From: a virus | Length of the DNA stretch: 29,460 nt | Direction: 5' to 3' (one strand) | IMG/VR virus record: IMGVR_UViG_3300017782_000131 | Span: 1 to 29,460 of that record | Notes under the pieces: model-generated | Told to the model about the DNA's origin: nothing | Databases searched by the model: none | What the model saw: the letters and a program-made list of their open reading frames with translations, nothing else | Shown: positions 1,959 through 17,158 of the stretch, in pieces | How positions within the stretch are numbered: the first letter of the stretch is position 1 | Layout: the number at the start of each line of letters is the position of its first letter | Made by a program: the position numbers and the translations under genes

Positions 1959-3512
1959 ATGTCAGACGCAATCGTCAAAAACCTTAGCTTTGGAAATGAA
2001 GCTAGGGAAAAAGTATTTGAAGGTATAAATAAACTCACTAATGCTGTCAGCTCTACATTAGGAGCTGGCGGTAAGTGTGTAATGCTGGAAGATGGATCAG
2101 GTAAACCTGTTATTACAAAAGATGGAGTAACTGTAGCAGATAGTATTATACTGTTAGATCCAGTTGAAAACATGGGAGCAACACTTTTAAAAGAAGCAGC
2201 TCGTAAAACAGTAAAAGAAGCAGGGGATGGAACTACTACAGCTACCGTATTAGCTCATGCAATACTTCATGAAGCCTCTAAAATACATAAAGGTATAAGT
2301 ATAAGAGATGTTAAATTTGGGATTGAATTAGCTCTTAAAAAGACTTTAAAATATTTAGATAAAATTAAAGTTCCTGTTAAAGGAAATATGATTGATCAAA
2401 TAGCTACTATTTCAACTAATAATGATTCTGATCTTGGTAAAATAATTGGTGATGCTTTTAGAGCAGTAGATGAAACAGGTGTAGTTATGATGGAAATGTC
2501 ATCACTTGCAGAAACAGAAATTGAAATTGTAGATGGTGTTCAATATGAAAAGGGATTAACAAACTCTCATTTTATAACAAGTAAAGAAAATAGAACAGCT
2601 GAATTAGAAAATCCGGAAGTTTTATTAATTGAATCACCAGTAGAAAATGTAAGACAAATACAAAGTATATTAGAATACGTTATAAAAAACAATAAACCTT
2701 TATTAATAGTAGCAGATATTGAGCAACCAGTTATAGCCGCTTTAGCCATGAATAAAGTAAAGGGTAATATAAAAGTTAATGTTATAAATGCTCCTACATA
2801 TGGGATAACTAAAAAAGAAATGTTAACTGATTTAGCTATGTTAACGGGAGCAACAATAATTAATGAAGATTTAGGTGATGATTTAGATTTTATTAAACCA
2901 GAATTTTTAGGGACATGCTTAAAAAGTATTACAACAGATGAAGAAACTATAATTCAAGTTTCTGAACCTTCAGGAGAAGTTTTAAAATCTATAAAAAAAA
3001 TAAAAAAAGATTTAAATAAAAATAAACCTCCTGCAGAAATAATTAGGTTAGAAAAGCGCTTAGCTCGTTTATCAGCTAAAATAGCAATAGTAAAAGTAGG
3101 TGCTAATTCAGATATAGAATTAAAAGAAAAATCAGATAGGGTTGAAGATGCAATATGTGCAACTAAAGCTGCAATAAAAGAAGGTATTGTTCCAGGTGGA
3201 GGTATAGCATTACATAATGCGGCTGATTCAATTAAAAATCCATCAACATCTGAAAAAATACTTATAAATGCAATTAAATATCCATATAAAACAATATTAA
3301 GTAATGCGGGTATTACATATGGAACATTTTTAGGTGAAGGTACTGGTATTAATGTAATAACAGGTAAAAGTTGTAATCTTATTAAAAGTGGTATTATAGA
3401 TCCACTGCTAGTTACAAAAAGTGCATTATCAAATGCAGTATCTGTTGCAACTACAATATTATCTACAGATTGTGTAATCAATAATTTAAGAGTTGATGAA
3501 GGCAATAGGTAG
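1959..3512 (+). CDS. groEL: Phage-encoded chaperonin GroEL (Hsp60)
   Basis: This 517-residue protein is a full group I chaperonin. It would form an ATP-driven ring that encloses unfolded proteins in the cytoplasm. The equatorial ATP site is intact: GDGTTTAT at residues 89-96, with D90 matching E. coli D87. RVEDA carries D397, matching the hydrolysis residue D398, and GGG lies at 413-415. The apical domain is recognisable in the middle (PLLIVADIEQPVIAALAMN). The E. coli C-terminal GGM repeats are absent; the protein ends in RVDEGNR, close to the end of the folded equatorial domain. ATG at 1959 gives the usual N-terminus (FGNEAR). The groES reading frame starts inside the last codons. Phage GroELs are known but uncommon; its clients are probably capsid or tail proteins (inferred). 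Confidence 0.97.
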   Translation: MSDAIVKNLSFGNEAREKVFEGINKLTNAVSSTLGAGGKCVMLEDGSGKPVITKDGVTVADSIILLDPVENMGATLLKEAARKTVKEAGDGTTTATVLAHAILHEASKIHKGISIRDVKFGIELALKKTLKYLDKIKVPVKGNMIDQIATISTNNDSDLGKIIGDAFRAVDETGVVMMEMSSLAETEIEIVDGVQYEKGLTNSHFITSKENRTAELENPEVLLIESPVENVRQIQSILEYVIKNNKPLLIVADIEQPVIAALAMNKVKGNIKVNVINAPTYGITKKEMLTDLAMLTGATIINEDLGDDLDFIKPEFLGTCLKSITTDEETIIQVSEPSGEVLKSIKKIKKDLNKNKPPAEIIRLEKRLARLSAKIAIVKVGANSDIELKEKSDRVEDAICATKAAIKEGIVPGGGIALHNAADSIKNPSTSEKILINAIKYPYKTILSNAGITYGTFLGEGTGINVITGKSCNLIKSGIIDPLLVTKSALSNAVSVATTILSTDCVINNLRVDEGNR

Positions 3513-3756
3513 AAATTTAATAATAAATAAAACAGCTAAAGAAATATCTAAAACAGAAGGAGGATTGCTTTTAGCGGATGCTCATAAAGATGATGTAAGA
3601 TATATAGAAGCAGAAGTAATATCAGTAGGTGATGAAGTTGAAGGCATAAAACAAAAAGATAAAATATATTTTGATAAACATGCCGGACATATTATAGAAA
3701 TAAACAAAACAGCTTATCATGTTATAAAATCTTCTGATATAGTTGTAGTGTTATGA
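3496..3756 (+). CDS. groES: Co-chaperonin GroES (Hsp10)
   Basis: This 86-residue protein caps GroEL and closes the folding chamber. The pattern fits Hsp10: an N-terminal GRNLIINK strand, a mobile-loop region containing the hydrophobic GGLLL (matching the GroEL-contacting GIVL of E. coli), EAEVISVGD, a KQKDKIYFDK strand, and a C-terminal DIVVVL like the usual DILA end. It is about ten residues shorter than E. coli GroES. I chose ATG 3496; a TTG three bases upstream is in frame and would add one residue. Either start lies inside groEL, giving an overlap of 17 to 20 bases and implying coupled translation. The order groEL-groES is the reverse of the usual bacterial operon. Confidence 0.93.
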   Translation: MKAIGRNLIINKTAKEISKTEGGLLLADAHKDDVRYIEAEVISVGDEVEGIKQKDKIYFDKHAGHIIEINKTAYHVIKSSDIVVVL

Positions 3757-4877: not shown

Positions 4878-5345
4878 ATGAAAAGTAAGTATATTAGCGA
4901 ACATATAACTTACAGTGAATCTATAAAATCCTCAACCGCAATACGAAAAGGTATTGAAAATATACCAACAGAATATCAAATGCAAAACATGAGCCAAGTA
5001 GCTGATAAAGTATTTGAACCACTACGCGAATGGGTTGGAGGACCAATTAAAGTAACTTCGTTTTTTCGCTGTGAAGAATTAAATAAAGCAATAGGAGGAA
5101 GCTCTAGATCGCAACATTGCGAAGGAAGAGCAATTGATGTTGATGATATATATAATTATAAATCAAATGCTGAAATGTTTCATTTTATAAAAGACAATTT
5201 AGATTTTGATCAATTAATATGGGAATATGGAAATTCTCATAATCCCGACTGGGTACATTTTAGTTTTATATCAGAAATGGAAAATAGAAAAAGAATACTC
5301 CAAGCTTTTAGAAAAGATGGTAAAACACAATATAAAATAATATAA
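4878..5345 (+). CDS. M15-family zinc peptidase, probable endolysin
   Basis: This 155-residue protein has the M15 (D-Ala-D-Ala carboxypeptidase/L-Ala-D-Glu endopeptidase) signature: SSRSQH with zinc ligand H80, GRAIDVD with D87, and DWVHFSF with H127; E116 in LIWEYG is a plausible catalytic acid. The family cuts peptide bonds in the stem peptides of peptidoglycan. There is no signal peptide, so access to the wall would need a holin, and the small membrane gene ending 5 bases upstream is the natural candidate. Length matches single-domain phage M15 endolysins. A virion-associated wall peptidase is the alternative. The stop overlaps the next start by one base (TAATG). Confidence 0.88.
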   Translation: MKSKYISEHITYSESIKSSTAIRKGIENIPTEYQMQNMSQVADKVFEPLREWVGGPIKVTSFFRCEELNKAIGGSSRSQHCEGRAIDVDDIYNYKSNAEMFHFIKDNLDFDQLIWEYGNSHNPDWVHFSFISEMENRKRILQAFRKDGKTQYKII

Positions 5346-8113: not shown

Positions 8114-8494
8114 ATGTGGCAAGTATTGCTTGGATTATTAAAAGGTGGACGCGGGGGTAAAACTCCAATAGGTAATTTAGCTTGGGATATACGAGAAGCA
8201 ATAAAAGGTAAGGAGTTAGATCCTAATGAATTAATATCTTTACAAACTAAAATAAATGAAATTGAAGCAGGCCATCGTAGTATATTTGTTGCTGGTTGGC
8301 GACCATTTATTGGATGGATTTGCGGAATTGCTTTAGCCTATAATTTTATTGTTCGTGATTTGTTTATATGGATATTAAAGCCTATTGATATTCCACCTGC
8401 TTTACAAATGGAACATTTAATGACAGTTTTATTAGGCATGCTTGGTCTTGGCGGCCTACGAACTTTTGAAAAAATAAAAGACAAAACAAAATAA
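8114..8494 (+). CDS. Holin-like membrane protein of the GTA 3TM type
   Basis: This 126-residue protein has a soluble N-terminal half and two to three membrane segments: residues about 57-75 (RSIFVAGWRPFIGWICGIA), 76-90 (LAYNFIVRDLFIWIL), and 101-113 (LMTVLLGMLGLGG). It ends LRTFEKIKDK. The pattern RPFIGW...AYNF...LLGMLGLGGLRTFEK matches my memory of the Holin_3TMs family, named for gene-transfer-agent release. Such proteins form inner-membrane holes that release the endolysin. It lies 2.8 kb from the M15 gene, and the 50-residue protein at 4720 is a second holin candidate. Confidence 0.85.
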   Translation: MWQVLLGLLKGGRGGKTPIGNLAWDIREAIKGKELDPNELISLQTKINEIEAGHRSIFVAGWRPFIGWICGIALAYNFIVRDLFIWILKPIDIPPALQMEHLMTVLLGMLGLGGLRTFEKIKDKTK

Positions 8495-9020: not shown

Positions 9021-9626
9021 ATGAAAAGCATATACGATTTTATAATAAAACCCGCAGGCGAAAGATATAATAATGAAATTAAAATTAACAATAAAAAATT
9101 AATTTTAAATACATCTATTGAAAATTGGAAAGCAATAAATAGAATTGCTTTAGTAATTGAAACGCCTATAGCATATTCAACTAAAATAAAAAAAGGTGAT
9201 TTAGTTGTTGTTCATCAAAATGTTTTTAGGAAGTTTTATAACATGAAAGGCAAGCAACAAAACAGCCGGTCATGGTTTAAAGAAAATCAATATTTTTGTG
9301 ATATAACACAAATGTATTTATATAAACAAAATAACAAATGGAATACAATATCTGAACGTTGTTTTGTTAAACCAATAGTTGATACGGACGTTTTAACGCT
9401 TGATAAAGAAAAAAAGCTTGTTGGTATATTAAAATATGGTAATAGCTCCTTAAAAGTTGCTGGAATCAATCCAGGAGACTTAATTGGGTTTACACCAAAC
9501 AGTGAATGGGATTTTATTATTGATAATGAAAGACTTTATTGTATGCAATCTAATGATATAGTAATTAAATATGAATACGAAGGAAACGAAGTTGAATATA
9601 ATCCAAGCTGGGCAAAAAGCAGTTAA
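9021..9626 (+). CDS. Beta-rich protein, possible tandem GroES-like barrels
   Basis: This 201-residue protein starts directly after the previous stop. Two segments share a layout like the GroES barrel. The first is ALVIETPIAYSTKIKKGDLVVVH with G59-D60, then HQNVFRKFY. The second is KLVGILKYGN...VAGINPGDLIGF with G152-D153. In each, a strand, a turn with KxGD or PGD, and a hydrophobic strand follow one another, as in GroES (VGD...KDKIYF). The last part (NDIVIKYEYEGNEVEYNPSW) resembles a closing strand like GroES DIV. No mobile-loop GGIVL-like motif is clear. I infer a double-barrel protein; homology to co-chaperonin is only a hypothesis, and it may be a structural protein. Confidence 0.6.
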   Translation: MKSIYDFIIKPAGERYNNEIKINNKKLILNTSIENWKAINRIALVIETPIAYSTKIKKGDLVVVHQNVFRKFYNMKGKQQNSRSWFKENQYFCDITQMYLYKQNNKWNTISERCFVKPIVDTDVLTLDKEKKLVGILKYGNSSLKVAGINPGDLIGFTPNSEWDFIIDNERLYCMQSNDIVIKYEYEGNEVEYNPSWAKSS

Positions 9627-12050: not shown

Positions 12051-14462
12051 ATGAATGTATATACAAACCCTAATAGCTCATTTCCAAGTCAAGTAGTAAG
12101 CAATGAAGAAAAAGCCAGTATAGATTATGGTAGACAAGTTGCTCATGCTATAGAAAGAGAGTGGTTTAATCAAGGTAGAAGTAATTGGAATAGATACCAA
12201 ACTTCTTGGAACAATTACCACCAGTTAAGATTGTATGCCAGAGGTGAACAATCAATTCAAAAATATAAAGATGAATTATCTATTAATGGTGATTTGTCTT
12301 ATTTAAATTTAGATTGGAAACCCGTGCCGGTTATACCAAAGTTTATAGACATTGTAGTAAATGGTATCTCAGATAAAGATTTTGAAATAAAAGCTTTTGC
12401 TCAAGACCCTGCATCATTACAAGAAAAAACAGAATATGCAAGAAGTGTATTAAGAGATATGTATACACAAGAATTACAAGGAATGGCTAATAAATTATTA
12501 GGTGAGGATTTTTCTAATTCACCTATAGCTGCAGAACAATTGCCAGAAACTCCAGAGGAGTTAGAAGTTATGATGCAAACTAGCTATAAACAATCTGTAG
12601 AAATAGCTGAAGAAGAAGCTATAAATAATGTACTTGCTAATAATAAATATGATAACATTAAAAAAAGATGTGTATATGATTTAGCTGTATTAGGCATTGG
12701 TGCTTCAAAAACATCATTTAATGTAACAAATGGAATTGTTGTTGATTATGTTGATCCAGCTTATTTAGTTTATTCATATACCGAAGATCCTGATTTTGAA
12801 GATATATATTATGCTGGTGAAGTAAAATCAATAACAATACCAGAATTAAAAAAGCAATTTCCGTATATTTCTGAAGAAGAATTAAAAGATATACAAAATA
12901 TGCCAGGTAATAAGCAATACGTTTCAGGCTGGGGTAATTATGATGAAAATACAGTTCAAGTATTATACTTCGAGTATAAAACTTACATGAATCAAGTGTT
13001 TAAAATAAAGCAGACAGAAAGTGGATTAGAAAAAGTAATTGAAAAACCAGACACTTTTAATCCTCCTCCAAATGATAATTTTGAAAGAGTTTCAAGAACA
13101 ATTGAAGTATTATATGATGGAGTTAAAGTATTAGGTAATAATACAATGTTAAGGTGGGAGTTATGTGAAAACATGACTAGGCCTTACGCAGATACTACTA
13201 AAGTTAAAATGAATTATGCTGTTACGGCACCTAGAATGTATAAAGGTCGTATAGAATCGCTAGTAAGTAGAATTACGGGATTTGCTGATATGATTCAATT
13301 AACTCATTTAAAATTACAACAAGTAATGTCTAGAATAGTTCCTGATGGAGTATTTTTAGATATGGATGGATTAGCAGAAGTGGATTTAGGTAATGGTACA
13401 AATTATAATCCAGCCGAAGCTTTGAACATGTATTTTCAAACAGGTAGTATTGTAGGAAGATCTTTAACACAAGATGGCGAATTAAATAGAGGTAAAGTTC
13501 CTGTACAAGAACTAACTTCCTCTGCGGGCCAAGCAAAAATAAATTCATTAATTGGTACATATCAATATTATTTGCAAATGATAAGAGATGTTACCGGATT
13601 AAATGAAGCAAGAGACGCAAGCACCCCTGATAAAAATGCATTAGTTGGATTACAAAAGATAGCAGCAAATCAATCTAATATTGCAACTAAACATATTTTA
13701 AAATCTAGTTTATTTTTAACATTAAGAATATGTGAAAATATATCATTAAGAATTGCTGATTGTTTAGAAAATCCATTAACTAATGAATCATTAAAACAAA
13801 GTATTTCAAAATTTAATGTTAAAACATTAAATGAAATAAAAGATTTAAATTTATATGATTTTGGTATATATTTAGAATTAGAACCAGAAGCAGAAGAACA
13901 AGCTCAATTAGAACAAAATATTCAAGTTGCATTACAATCAGGTGGAATTGATTTAGAAGATGCAATTGATATAAGACAAATTAAAAATTTAAAGCTTGCT
14001 AATCAAACTCTTAAATTTAAACGTAAGAAAAAACAAGAAGCAGTTGAAGCACAGCAATTAGCTAATATAAATGCTCAAGCAGAAGCAAATGCAAAAGCTT
14101 CTGAAGCAGCTGCATTAGCAGAGGTACAAAAGCAGCAGGCTATTACAGCTGAGAAAGTTAGTATTGAACAAGCTAAGTCACAATTTGAAATTGAAAGAAT
14201 GCGTACTGAATCTCAAATTAAAAGAGAACTTATGGCAGAGGAATTTAATTATCAAGTTCAATTAGCTCAAGCTAAAGGTAAAGCTGAAACAAATAAAGAA
14301 AAAGAAATTGAAGATCGTAAAGATCAACGTGTTCGAATACAAGGAACACAACAATCTGAGTTAATAAATCAAAGACAAAATGATTTATTACCTAAGAATT
14401 TTGAATCCGCTGGAAATGACAACTTAGACGGATTTGGATTAGAACAATTTAATCCTAGATAA
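12051..14462 (+). CDS. Portal protein
   Basis: This 803-residue protein would form the dodecameric ring at one head vertex through which DNA enters and leaves. It follows the terminase stop with no gap, the standard order. The body has the portal pattern of a mixed N-terminal region, an acidic helical insertion (residues ~145-200), a central core, and a long amphipathic Gln/Ala/Glu coiled coil (residues ~660-770) extending into the head. The tail is polar and ends FGLEQFNPR. The length is large and resembles portals of crAss-like and marine podophages. Identification is by order, length and layout, as no single motif is diagnostic. Confidence 0.85.
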   Translation: MNVYTNPNSSFPSQVVSNEEKASIDYGRQVAHAIEREWFNQGRSNWNRYQTSWNNYHQLRLYARGEQSIQKYKDELSINGDLSYLNLDWKPVPVIPKFIDIVVNGISDKDFEIKAFAQDPASLQEKTEYARSVLRDMYTQELQGMANKLLGEDFSNSPIAAEQLPETPEELEVMMQTSYKQSVEIAEEEAINNVLANNKYDNIKKRCVYDLAVLGIGASKTSFNVTNGIVVDYVDPAYLVYSYTEDPDFEDIYYAGEVKSITIPELKKQFPYISEEELKDIQNMPGNKQYVSGWGNYDENTVQVLYFEYKTYMNQVFKIKQTESGLEKVIEKPDTFNPPPNDNFERVSRTIEVLYDGVKVLGNNTMLRWELCENMTRPYADTTKVKMNYAVTAPRMYKGRIESLVSRITGFADMIQLTHLKLQQVMSRIVPDGVFLDMDGLAEVDLGNGTNYNPAEALNMYFQTGSIVGRSLTQDGELNRGKVPVQELTSSAGQAKINSLIGTYQYYLQMIRDVTGLNEARDASTPDKNALVGLQKIAANQSNIATKHILKSSLFLTLRICENISLRIADCLENPLTNESLKQSISKFNVKTLNEIKDLNLYDFGIYLELEPEAEEQAQLEQNIQVALQSGGIDLEDAIDIRQIKNLKLANQTLKFKRKKKQEAVEAQQLANINAQAEANAKASEAAALAEVQKQQAITAEKVSIEQAKSQFEIERMRTESQIKRELMAEEFNYQVQLAQAKGKAETNKEKEIEDRKDQRVRIQGTQQSELINQRQNDLLPKNFESAGNDNLDGFGLEQFNPR

Positions 14463-15721: not shown

Positions 15722-17158
15722 ATGGCAACAGTTCCAGTGGCCCCGGTATTTGGGTCAATTAAACCGTCTCAAAAGCAACAGCTTTTAGAGACAAATTATT
15801 TAAGTTTCACCGATGGTAACAATGACTTCGCGCAACAATACCTTCCTGAAATTTATGAACAAGAAGTAGAGCGTTATGGAAACAGAACATTATCTGGCTT
15901 CTTAAGAATGGTTGGTGCAGAAATGCCCATGACTTCTGACCAAATTGTATGGTCTGAGCAAAACCGTTTACATATTGCTTATGATGGATGTACTCACTCA
16001 GCTGCAGTAGCAGATGATATTACATTCCCCGTAGGTGGTGCAGGTGCAGCATTTGTTGAAAATGTTATTTCTGTAAATCAAACTATCGTTATTATGAATC
16101 CAGCTAATGGAGCAGAAGTTAAAGCTCTTGTAGTTGCAAGCGTAACAGCAGGTGGTGTGGCTAGTATTTCTGTTAAATCGTATACATCAGCTAATGTTGC
16201 TCCTACGATTGCACAGGCTACGGCAGGATTAAAAATATTTGTTTATGGTTCTGAATATAGAAAAGGAACTACAGACAATGATATTAAAAGTGTAACTCCA
16301 AGTTTTACACAGTTTCAAAATTCCCCTATCATTATTAAAGAAAAGTATGCGATCAATGGATCTGATACTGCTCAAATAGGATGGGTTGAAGTAGCAACTG
16401 AAGATGGAACATCTGGATTCTTATGGTATTTAAAAGCTGAATCAGAAACTCGTTTACGTTTTGAAGATTACTTAGAAATGGCTGTAGTTGAAGGAGAATT
16501 AGCAGCAGCTGGTTCTGGTGTTGCAGGAATTGCAGGTATTGCTTATGGTGGTACTCAAGGTTTATTTGCAGCTATTCAAGATAGAGGTAATGTAGTAAGT
16601 GGCTTCGTTGCTGCTGGTGGATTAGGTACATTTGACAATATCCTTAAAAATTTAGATACTCAAGGAGCTATTGAAGAAAACATGCTTTTCTTAAATCGTT
16701 CTACGTCTTTAGATTTTGATGATATGTTAGCTACTCTTTCTGCTGGTGCAAATGGAGGAACAGCTTATGGATTATTTGAAAACTCTGAAGAGATGGCATT
16801 AAATCTTGGATTTACTGGTTTCCGTAGAGGTTCTTATGATTTCTATAAAACTGATTGGAAATACTTAAATGATGCTTCTACTAGAGGTGCAATGGCAGAC
16901 AATCCTATTGATGGTGTCCTTGTTCCAGCTGGTACATCAACTGTATATGACCAAATCTTAGGAACTAATATCAGACGACCTTTCTTACATGTACGTTACC
17001 GTGCATCTGAAGCGGATGATAGAAGAATGAAGTCTTGGTTAACAGGATCTGTTGGAGGTGCATATACATCTTCATTAGATGCGATGGAAGTTCATTTCCT
17101 ATCTGAAAGATGTTTAGTAGTTCAGGCTGCAAACAACTTCGTATTATTTACTAAATAG
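15722..17158 (+). CDS. Major capsid protein (probable HK97 fold)
   Basis: This 478-residue protein follows the scaffold-like gene and would build the head shell. The N-terminal region (LLETNYLSFTDGNNDFAQQYLPEIYEQEVERYGNRTLSG) is helical and charged like the N-arm and E-loop region of HK97-type capsids. A central beta-rich domain (~100-215) may be an inserted domain. The end (FLHVRYRASEADDRRMKSW...VVQAANNF) fits the A/P domain closing strands. The stop is a double TAG TAG, and a strong intrinsic terminator follows at 17180-17210, as expected for a gene needing a high transcript level. The fold is assigned by order and length, not by a diagnostic motif. Confidence 0.82.
   Translation: MATVPVAPVFGSIKPSQKQQLLETNYLSFTDGNNDFAQQYLPEIYEQEVERYGNRTLSGFLRMVGAEMPMTSDQIVWSEQNRLHIAYDGCTHSAAVADDITFPVGGAGAAFVENVISVNQTIVIMNPANGAEVKALVVASVTAGGVASISVKSYTSANVAPTIAQATAGLKIFVYGSEYRKGTTDNDIKSVTPSFTQFQNSPIIIKEKYAINGSDTAQIGWVEVATEDGTSGFLWYLKAESETRLRFEDYLEMAVVEGELAAAGSGVAGIAGIAYGGTQGLFAAIQDRGNVVSGFVAAGGLGTFDNILKNLDTQGAIEENMLFLNRSTSLDFDDMLATLSAGANGGTAYGLFENSEEMALNLGFTGFRRGSYDFYKTDWKYLNDASTRGAMADNPIDGVLVPAGTSTVYDQILGTNIRRPFLHVRYRASEADDRRMKSWLTGSVGGAYTSSLDAMEVHFLSERCLVVQAANNFVLFTK

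Follow-up and report, generated by a model that had tools for sequence, protein, structure and literature searches.

The 29,460-base virus record IMGVR_UViG_3300017782_000131, analysed over its whole length and referred to here as the window, encodes a complete, divergent GroEL-GroES pair in which groEL comes first and groES begins within its end. Judged from related sequences, this reversed pair is no oddity of one phage and is common to many relatives. We think it likely that the two genes specify a chaperonin dedicated to the phage, whose enlarged chamber would fold late virion proteins. Earlier publications already describe phages that carry both genes and connect gene order with GroEL phylogeny; what is added here is a structural reading of the pair, together with a linked gene for a probable tandem co-chaperonin. 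The general statement that phages carry chaperonins is in this way turned into testable structure-function predictions. The features concerned are the following:

1959-3512, plus strand: groEL, a phage group I chaperonin of 517 aa, without the GGM tail
3496-3756, plus strand: groES, a phage co-chaperonin of 86 aa with an ATG start, without the roof hairpin by alignment and model
3496-3512, plus strand: overlap of the groEL end and the groES start, 17 bases
4878-5345, plus strand: M15 peptidase endolysin (PF08291, 59.3 bits; phrog_894, endolysin), context and alternative client
8114-8494, plus strand: holin-like protein (PF11351, 38.6 bits), context
9021-9626, plus strand: second co-chaperonin-like gene, probably a tandem Cpn10 (Cpn20-like) protein, 201 aa
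9843-12050, plus strand: terminase large subunit (phrog_6681, E 8.5e-161), context
12051-14462, plus strand: portal protein (phrog_6547, E 6.8e-148), context
15722-17158, plus strand: probable major capsid protein, 478 aa (phrog_13704, 'virion structural protein', E 1.3e-93), proposed client

A first-pass annotation of the window had placed the pair in a phage virion region. This is a fair description, given that terminase, portal and capsid-type genes lie nearby, though the terminase starts 6.3 kb past the groEL end. The capsid role of 15722-17158 is assigned because the gene sits after the portal gene. Two frames ahead of the chaperonin genes, at 2-451 and 599-1537, are glycine-rich and look fibre-like by eye; the second of them has no match in Pfam. 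The best named-phage match for both the terminase (64%) and the capsid-type protein (48%) is the Manatee Spring isolate ctfjg026, followed by elemo, Panino and the Cellulophaga phages and, for the terminase only, by Tenacibaculum phages; apart from ctfjg026, the names of the matching records point to flavobacterial hosts. Given that a 61.6-kb IMG/VR record (L172, L255) has an identical GroES and a tandem protein 94% identical to the window's, and that the ctfjg026 genome is circular with 60.9 kb, the full phage genome is probably near 61 kb.

Both proteins pass their Pfam cut-offs (GroEL, PF00118, 209.9 bits against 34.3, residues 26-508; GroES, PF00166, 45.5 bits against 21.1), which bears out the complete pair that had been proposed from the sequence; GroEL further matches the PHROG family 'chaperonin groEL' (E 6.9e-126). 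Chance is excluded as the source of the pair because of these domain scores and because the same pair recurs in all 80 related loci kept, the best 80 of at least 591. At the subfamily level, GroEL passes the NCBIfam cut-offs of NF009487 (461.8 over 352) and NF000592 (458.9 over 397) and does not reach those of NF009489 and NF009488. Against the equivalog model TIGR02348 it scores 448.3 bits, below a cut-off of 582.1 that is passed by 79 of 80 and 39 of 40 genomes in two cellular draws (the phyla of MAGs titled Sphingobacteriales and Maricaulis). By its profile scores, then, the window GroEL is a divergent relative, not a bacterial housekeeping GroEL. Plasmid-borne GroELs account for 1,324 records among the matches listed, all below 60% identity.

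The ATP site had been described as intact, and its catalytic residues are indeed kept: D52, D87, G88, T89-T91, D398, G415, G416 and D495 (E. coli numbering) are all retained. None of the 12 ATP-site positions scored varies among 44 cellular rows; among 29 viral rows 11 do not vary either, and G415 is nearly invariant. The exception is P33 of the nucleotide-binding loop, invariant in the 44 cellular rows and replaced by A in the window and throughout the viral representatives. The phage GroEL would thus hydrolyse ATP at a near-standard site.

The order of the two genes is reversed relative to that of cells, as had been pointed out. In the IMG/VR scan, from which the best 80 of at least 591 relatives were kept, groEL is followed by groES on the same strand in 80/80 loci, whereas groES lies upstream of groEL in all 49 cellular loci. 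The latter comprise 30 and 14 loci drawn from two phyla (80 and 40 genomes; best-scoring matches only), labelled Bacteroidota and Pseudomonadota after MAG titles, plus four MAG loci and one Acinetobacter contig; the cells sampled are of these two phyla. For the groES start, the list of open reading frames gives a TTG at 3493, and we adopted the ATG at 3496, the start common to relatives; it falls inside groEL, so that the frames overlap, as claimed, by 17 bases. The same overlap occurs in 70 of the 80 loci, with 4 bases in six, 20 in two and 1 in one, so that 79 have some overlap. The only locus with a gap (L074) has 361 bases between the genes. With this arrangement, translation of groES from its overlapping frame would probably be coupled to that of groEL. 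Among named phages, groEL comes first in elemo (Flavobacterium; 1-base overlap), in Maribacter phage Panino (a 44-aa frame between) and in isolate ctfjg026, while the host order is found in Cellulophaga phi38:1 and Calle_1 (a small gene between), Flavobacterium immuto and MaF61. All of these carry both partners, and the earlier remark that phages usually supply only one is outdated.

The conserved order has a phylogenetic counterpart. From 137 full-length viral GroELs, 22 representatives were taken at 80% identity, 12 of which were used in a careful tree of 53 rows; cellular rows, mostly from a random draw, number 28 in a quick tree and 23, including E. coli, in the careful one, which left out MaF61, cr108_1, cr111_1, L108 (a row from a MAG) and several close rows. 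In this careful tree, the rows with the order groEL-groES fall on one side of a single branch (support 99/93) outside the cells, with one order change, and phi38:1 (Cpn10, small gene, groEL) is the sister row to this clade. A viral clade with conserved order, which the first-pass annotation had named as the observation that would support it, is therefore found. In the quick tree, which includes the rows left out of the careful one, the viral clade has a support of 91 and long branches meet. The deep branching order in these alignments is unsure, with long branches for elemo, Panino and phi38:1 and with an unrooted tree; likewise, the split 'viral rows plus Bacteroidota' is already in the unrooted tree, and a clade test on it is uninformative.

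These trees bear on whether the pair could be a host groESL operon captured recently, with its order rearranged. Phages do capture cellular GroELs, as shown by two Vibrio phage GroELs that group with E. coli in the careful tree. However, the cells, together with the phage GroELs that nest within them, all lie past a 100/99 branch, and against the GroEL model the window protein scores 448 bits where full-length cellular copies score 730-902. Placement of both genes inside one host clade with host-like order, which had been named as the sign of such an event, did not occur among the cells sampled. Recent host capture is supported by neither tree (cells of two phyla sampled), and we regard it as highly improbable.

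The lid of the phage pair departs from the E. coli model. The mobile-loop-like GGLLL that had been noticed is present in GroES, with G23 and L24 invariant in 30/30 rows and L26 in at least 90%. An AlphaFold2 model (30 rows thinned from 165 loci, with two short false rows removed before alignment) has a mean pLDDT of 84.7, falling below 50 at mobile-loop residues 16-19 and 24-28, and places a coil at the roof position. It matches GroES structures with Z up to 11.9 (1wnr_G: Z 11.8, 75 aligned, rmsd 1.4). Counting the residues between E. coli G44 and D63, the roof is 9 residues long in the window, 18 in E. coli and 11 in T4 gp31. The cellular GroES have 17-18 in 43 of 49 cases, with a roof shortened to 12-13 in the other six. 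By contrast, it is 9 in 157 of 159 IMG/VR loci and 11 in two (two scans sharing contigs, some counted twice), and 9 in 17 of 19 MAG-borne viral types and 7 in two (some loci fetched twice). In named phages, it is 9 in four of seven (Panino, elemo, ctfjg026 and Bacteroides phage DAC19), 16 in phi38:1 and Calle_1 and 18 in immuto; MaF61, whose protein has 187 aa, was excluded from the count. The roof hairpin is thus missing from the window GroES, by alignment and by model. Bacterial GroES usually have this hairpin, but since Gp31 is without it, it does not define a GroES. In DAC19 (L005), the roofless GroES is found with the order groES-groEL and with a GroEL near the cellular GroELs; hence roof loss and gene order are not tied. 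That the roof is missing from T4 Gp31, DAC19 and the window clade suggests that phage lids have been repeatedly reshaped. At the opposite end of the chamber, the GGM tail is absent, as had been noted: counted from E. coli position 525, E. coli has 24 residues, and 7 are left in the window, as in 17 of 22 viral representatives.

A close precedent for the lid is T4 gp31, which is reported to lack the roof loops, to give with GroEL a chamber 8% larger, and to be essential for folding the capsid protein gp23 (PMC6318259). The window GroES resembles it as a phage co-chaperonin without the roof hairpin, and differs in that Gp31 works with the host GroEL and has a longer mobile loop, the two being 13% identical in a structural alignment. 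With neither a lid roof nor a GGM floor tail, the closed chamber of the phage pair should be larger, or open-topped, as with T4 Gp31. As to what it would enclose, a GroEL chamber takes roughly 60 kDa. The 1432-residue tail protein, suggested in the first-pass annotation as a client, is far larger than this limit and is therefore unlikely to be enclosed; the 478-residue capsid-type protein is a better candidate. Late virion proteins would most likely be the ones folded, the capsid-type protein first.

A different use of the same machine also has to be weighed, namely a general or lysis-related folding aid that protects the endolysin or replication enzymes, or keeps cell proteins soluble late in infection, and does not fold the capsid. 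The EL and AR9 phage chaperonins are reported to act on endolysin in vitro (PMC9598537), and in the window the M15 endolysin gene starts 1.1 kb past groES. Furthermore, two phages with homologous terminases are without GroEL: phi19:3 has the short Cpn10 and the tandem protein, and Gundel_1 has none of GroEL, short Cpn10 and tandem gene. Such phages can evidently do without GroEL, which favours an auxiliary role and counts against capsid folding. The loss of the roof, on the other hand, parallels T4 Gp31, whose reported role in capsid-protein folding is essential, and in 139/139 loci with room the terminase follows the tandem Cpn10 gene, although this concerns the second gene and not the pair. 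We hold a general or lysis-related role to be possible, if somewhat doubtful, and continue to favour a chaperonin dedicated to virion proteins.

If the chaperonin is dedicated, its two partners may also be private to each other. In E. coli GroEL, the apical residues Y199, Y203, L234, L237, F204, V263 and V264 bind GroES and substrate. All 44 cellular rows have L at 234 and V at 264, where all 29 viral rows have Q and M. Y199, Y203 and V263 are likewise invariant in the 44 cellular rows, while the 29 viral rows have L at 199 in 25, H at 203 in 23 and A at 263 in 24. Two contacts are retained among the viral rows (L237 in 29/29, F204 in 27/29), which counts against a fully changed surface. The binding surface is thus partly changed and fixed in a new form; the phage GroES would cap the phage GroEL, and the pair is probably not interchangeable with that of the host. 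In support of joint descent, the distances among GroELs track those among the GroES proteins over 34 rows (r 0.82, with 0/5,000 permutations as high), the correlation being weak in the 23 nearest rows (r 0.31, 50/5,000 permutations as high).

The same data bear on a reading in which both the phage GroES and the tandem Cpn10 protein would serve host GroEL, in the manner of T4 Gp31, with the phage GroEL as a separate, partly redundant machine. The gene content of phi19:3, with both co-chaperonins and no GroEL, indicates that co-chaperonins alone are workable in a relative. But the conserved overlap, the joint descent and the apical changes fixed in the GroELs of the same clade all argue for a private pair, and action on the host GroEL seems unlikely to us.

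The contacts between rings may have changed as well. Single-ring GroEL made in the laboratory works in cells only after a change of lid contact or of other residues. Mutations of single-ring GroEL are reported at R452, E461, S463 and V464 (PMC5575113, where R451A is written once and R452A once). In the viral rows, positions 452, 461, 463 and 464 lie at the 87th, 93rd, 100th and 99th percentile of variability, and none of 20,000 random sets of cell-conserved positions was as variable, in an entropy test that ignores relatedness. The window has K, T, G and T at these positions. At least 80% of viral rows lack counterparts of E. coli 429-435 and 467-470, in an alignment that is gapped near 461-470. 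Against a loss of ring contact, K at 452 is a conservative, basic residue, 11 of the 22 representatives have E or D at position 461, and 13 of the 22 retain K105. Given that conservation is lost at four single-ring positions, it is plausible that the phage GroEL acts as single or loosely paired rings. Having unconserved inter-ring positions and a GroES of its own, the phage GroEL could be the equivalent in nature of the laboratory single-ring GroEL.

The second co-chaperonin-like gene, at 9021-9626, was found by a loose GroES profile; existing annotations of elemo, Calle, phi38:1 (RefSeq), Panino and phi19:3 already name it cpn10 or GroES. Its protein matches phrog_13932, 'co-chaperonin GroES' (E 2.5e-24, residues 1-182), and has no match in Pfam, while its relatives in phi19:3 and phi38:1 do pass the Pfam Cpn10 cut-off. 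An AlphaFold2 model (38 rows thinned from 150 loci; mean pLDDT 88.4) aligns over residues 1-185 with the Chlamydomonas Cpn20 chain 7ekq_R (Z 9.8, 160 aligned, rmsd 4.0; Foldseek TM 0.53 for the whole model against Cpn20). Single GroES chains match the C-terminal half only (residues 106-185, Z up to 8.1). By hhalign against cellular GroES, this half scores as a GroES-like domain (89% probability, E 2.3e-6, 40 columns), and the N-terminal half gives only a 9-column match at 3% probability. The roof segment, read by eye, is short in both domains. On the strength of the model, we conclude that the product is probably a tandem Cpn10, or Cpn20-like, protein; it would share with chloroplast Cpn20 the two GroES-like domains per chain, and differ in being viral and encoded beside a terminase.

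The position of this gene is constant among the loci scanned. Two overlapping IMG/VR scans gave 80 loci each, and a terminase lies at most 1.5 kb downstream in 68/68 and 71/71 loci with room, or 139/139 with some contigs counted twice; the remaining 12 and 9 loci end too soon. Upstream, groEL is found in 17 of the 18 first-scan loci with at least 7 kb. Across 11 chosen phage or virus records, GroEL is present in 9, the tandem gene in 10 (split in one) and the short Cpn10 in 10, and 10 of the 11 carry both the short and the tandem Cpn10. In G128, the record that contains L211, both groEL and the tandem Cpn10 gene are divided into two frames, which suggests sequencing errors or decay. The core genes of Pervagoviridae are also reported to include a chaperonin cpn10, where it is not told whether the short or the tandem one is meant (PMC8776804).

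With two kinds of lid-like protein encoded in a single phage genome, one may ask what a virus needs a Cpn20 for. In chloroplasts, Cpn20 and Cpn10 are reported to form mixed seven-domain lids (PMC3542282, PMC5780408), and the phage tandem protein, encoded just ahead of the terminase, may by its model be a second or mixed lid. In a bolder form of this proposal, three tandem chains and one short Cpn10 would make up seven domains in a chloroplast-like mixed lid, closing a natural single-ring phage GroEL whose roofless, enlarged chamber is tuned for virion proteins; taken as a whole, this is quite unlikely. The structure matched best, 7ekq, is that of a ClpP complex, so that capping of a ClpP by the modelled protein is another possibility.

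Several groups have described related systems. Marine et al. 2017 (ISME J) reportedly dealt with viral groEL-groES pairs of virioplankton. As summarised in a Lake Baikal paper (PMC9611531), that work linked gene order to GroEL phylogeny in viral metagenomes and concerned genomes above 70 kb, whereas those discussed here are nearer 61 kb. GroEL and GroES homologs are reported for Panino (PMC11590407), and, among 78 environmental genomes from the phi38:1 group, GroEL for 36 (Nishimura et al. 2017, PMC5332604). As far as the published descriptions go, the virioplankton pairs and the elemo, Panino and ctfjg026 genomes are like the window in having both partners, groEL first and a divergent viral GroEL; what is added to them is the reading of the roof, the tail, the apical surface and the ring contacts, and the linked tandem Cpn10 gene. 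For roof loss, ring-contact change and a Cpn20-like gene in this clade, no description was found in the parts of the open-licence literature consulted. Compared with E. coli GroEL-GroES, the phage pair is alike in fold families, catalytic residues and the mobile-loop tripeptide, and differs in gene order, roof, GGM tail, some apical contacts and inter-ring positions.

The giant phages EL, OBP and AR9 also encode GroEL-type chaperonins, the window differing in its adjacent, conserved groES gene. The OBP and AR9 chaperonins are reported to be single rings and that of EL a double one, all working without a co-chaperonin (PMC9598537); the OBP GroEL and that of the window share 23.5% identity over 78% of the latter. 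A GroES profile run over about 2.5 kb either side of GroEL found nothing in two Vibrio Ackermannviridae, Vibrio 2.275, Va1, OBP, LR756501, cr108_1 and cr111_1. In the crAss-like cr108_1 and cr111_1 (L095, L096), a small frame overlaps the groEL end much as groES does in the window, and is no Cpn10 by Pfam.

Finally, GroELs of the viral type, most with groES downstream, occur in MAGs labelled Euryarchaeota, Alphaproteobacteria, Flavobacteriaceae, Aliivibrio and others (L086-L092, L108-L123). Most simply, they are virus contigs in bacteria- or archaea-labelled bins, and one MAG (G004) has eight GroEL matches, probably of this origin. Conversely, a record named Acinetobacter phage MD-2021a (L249) has a host-type groS-groL amid bacterial housekeeping genes and looks like a bacterial chromosome.
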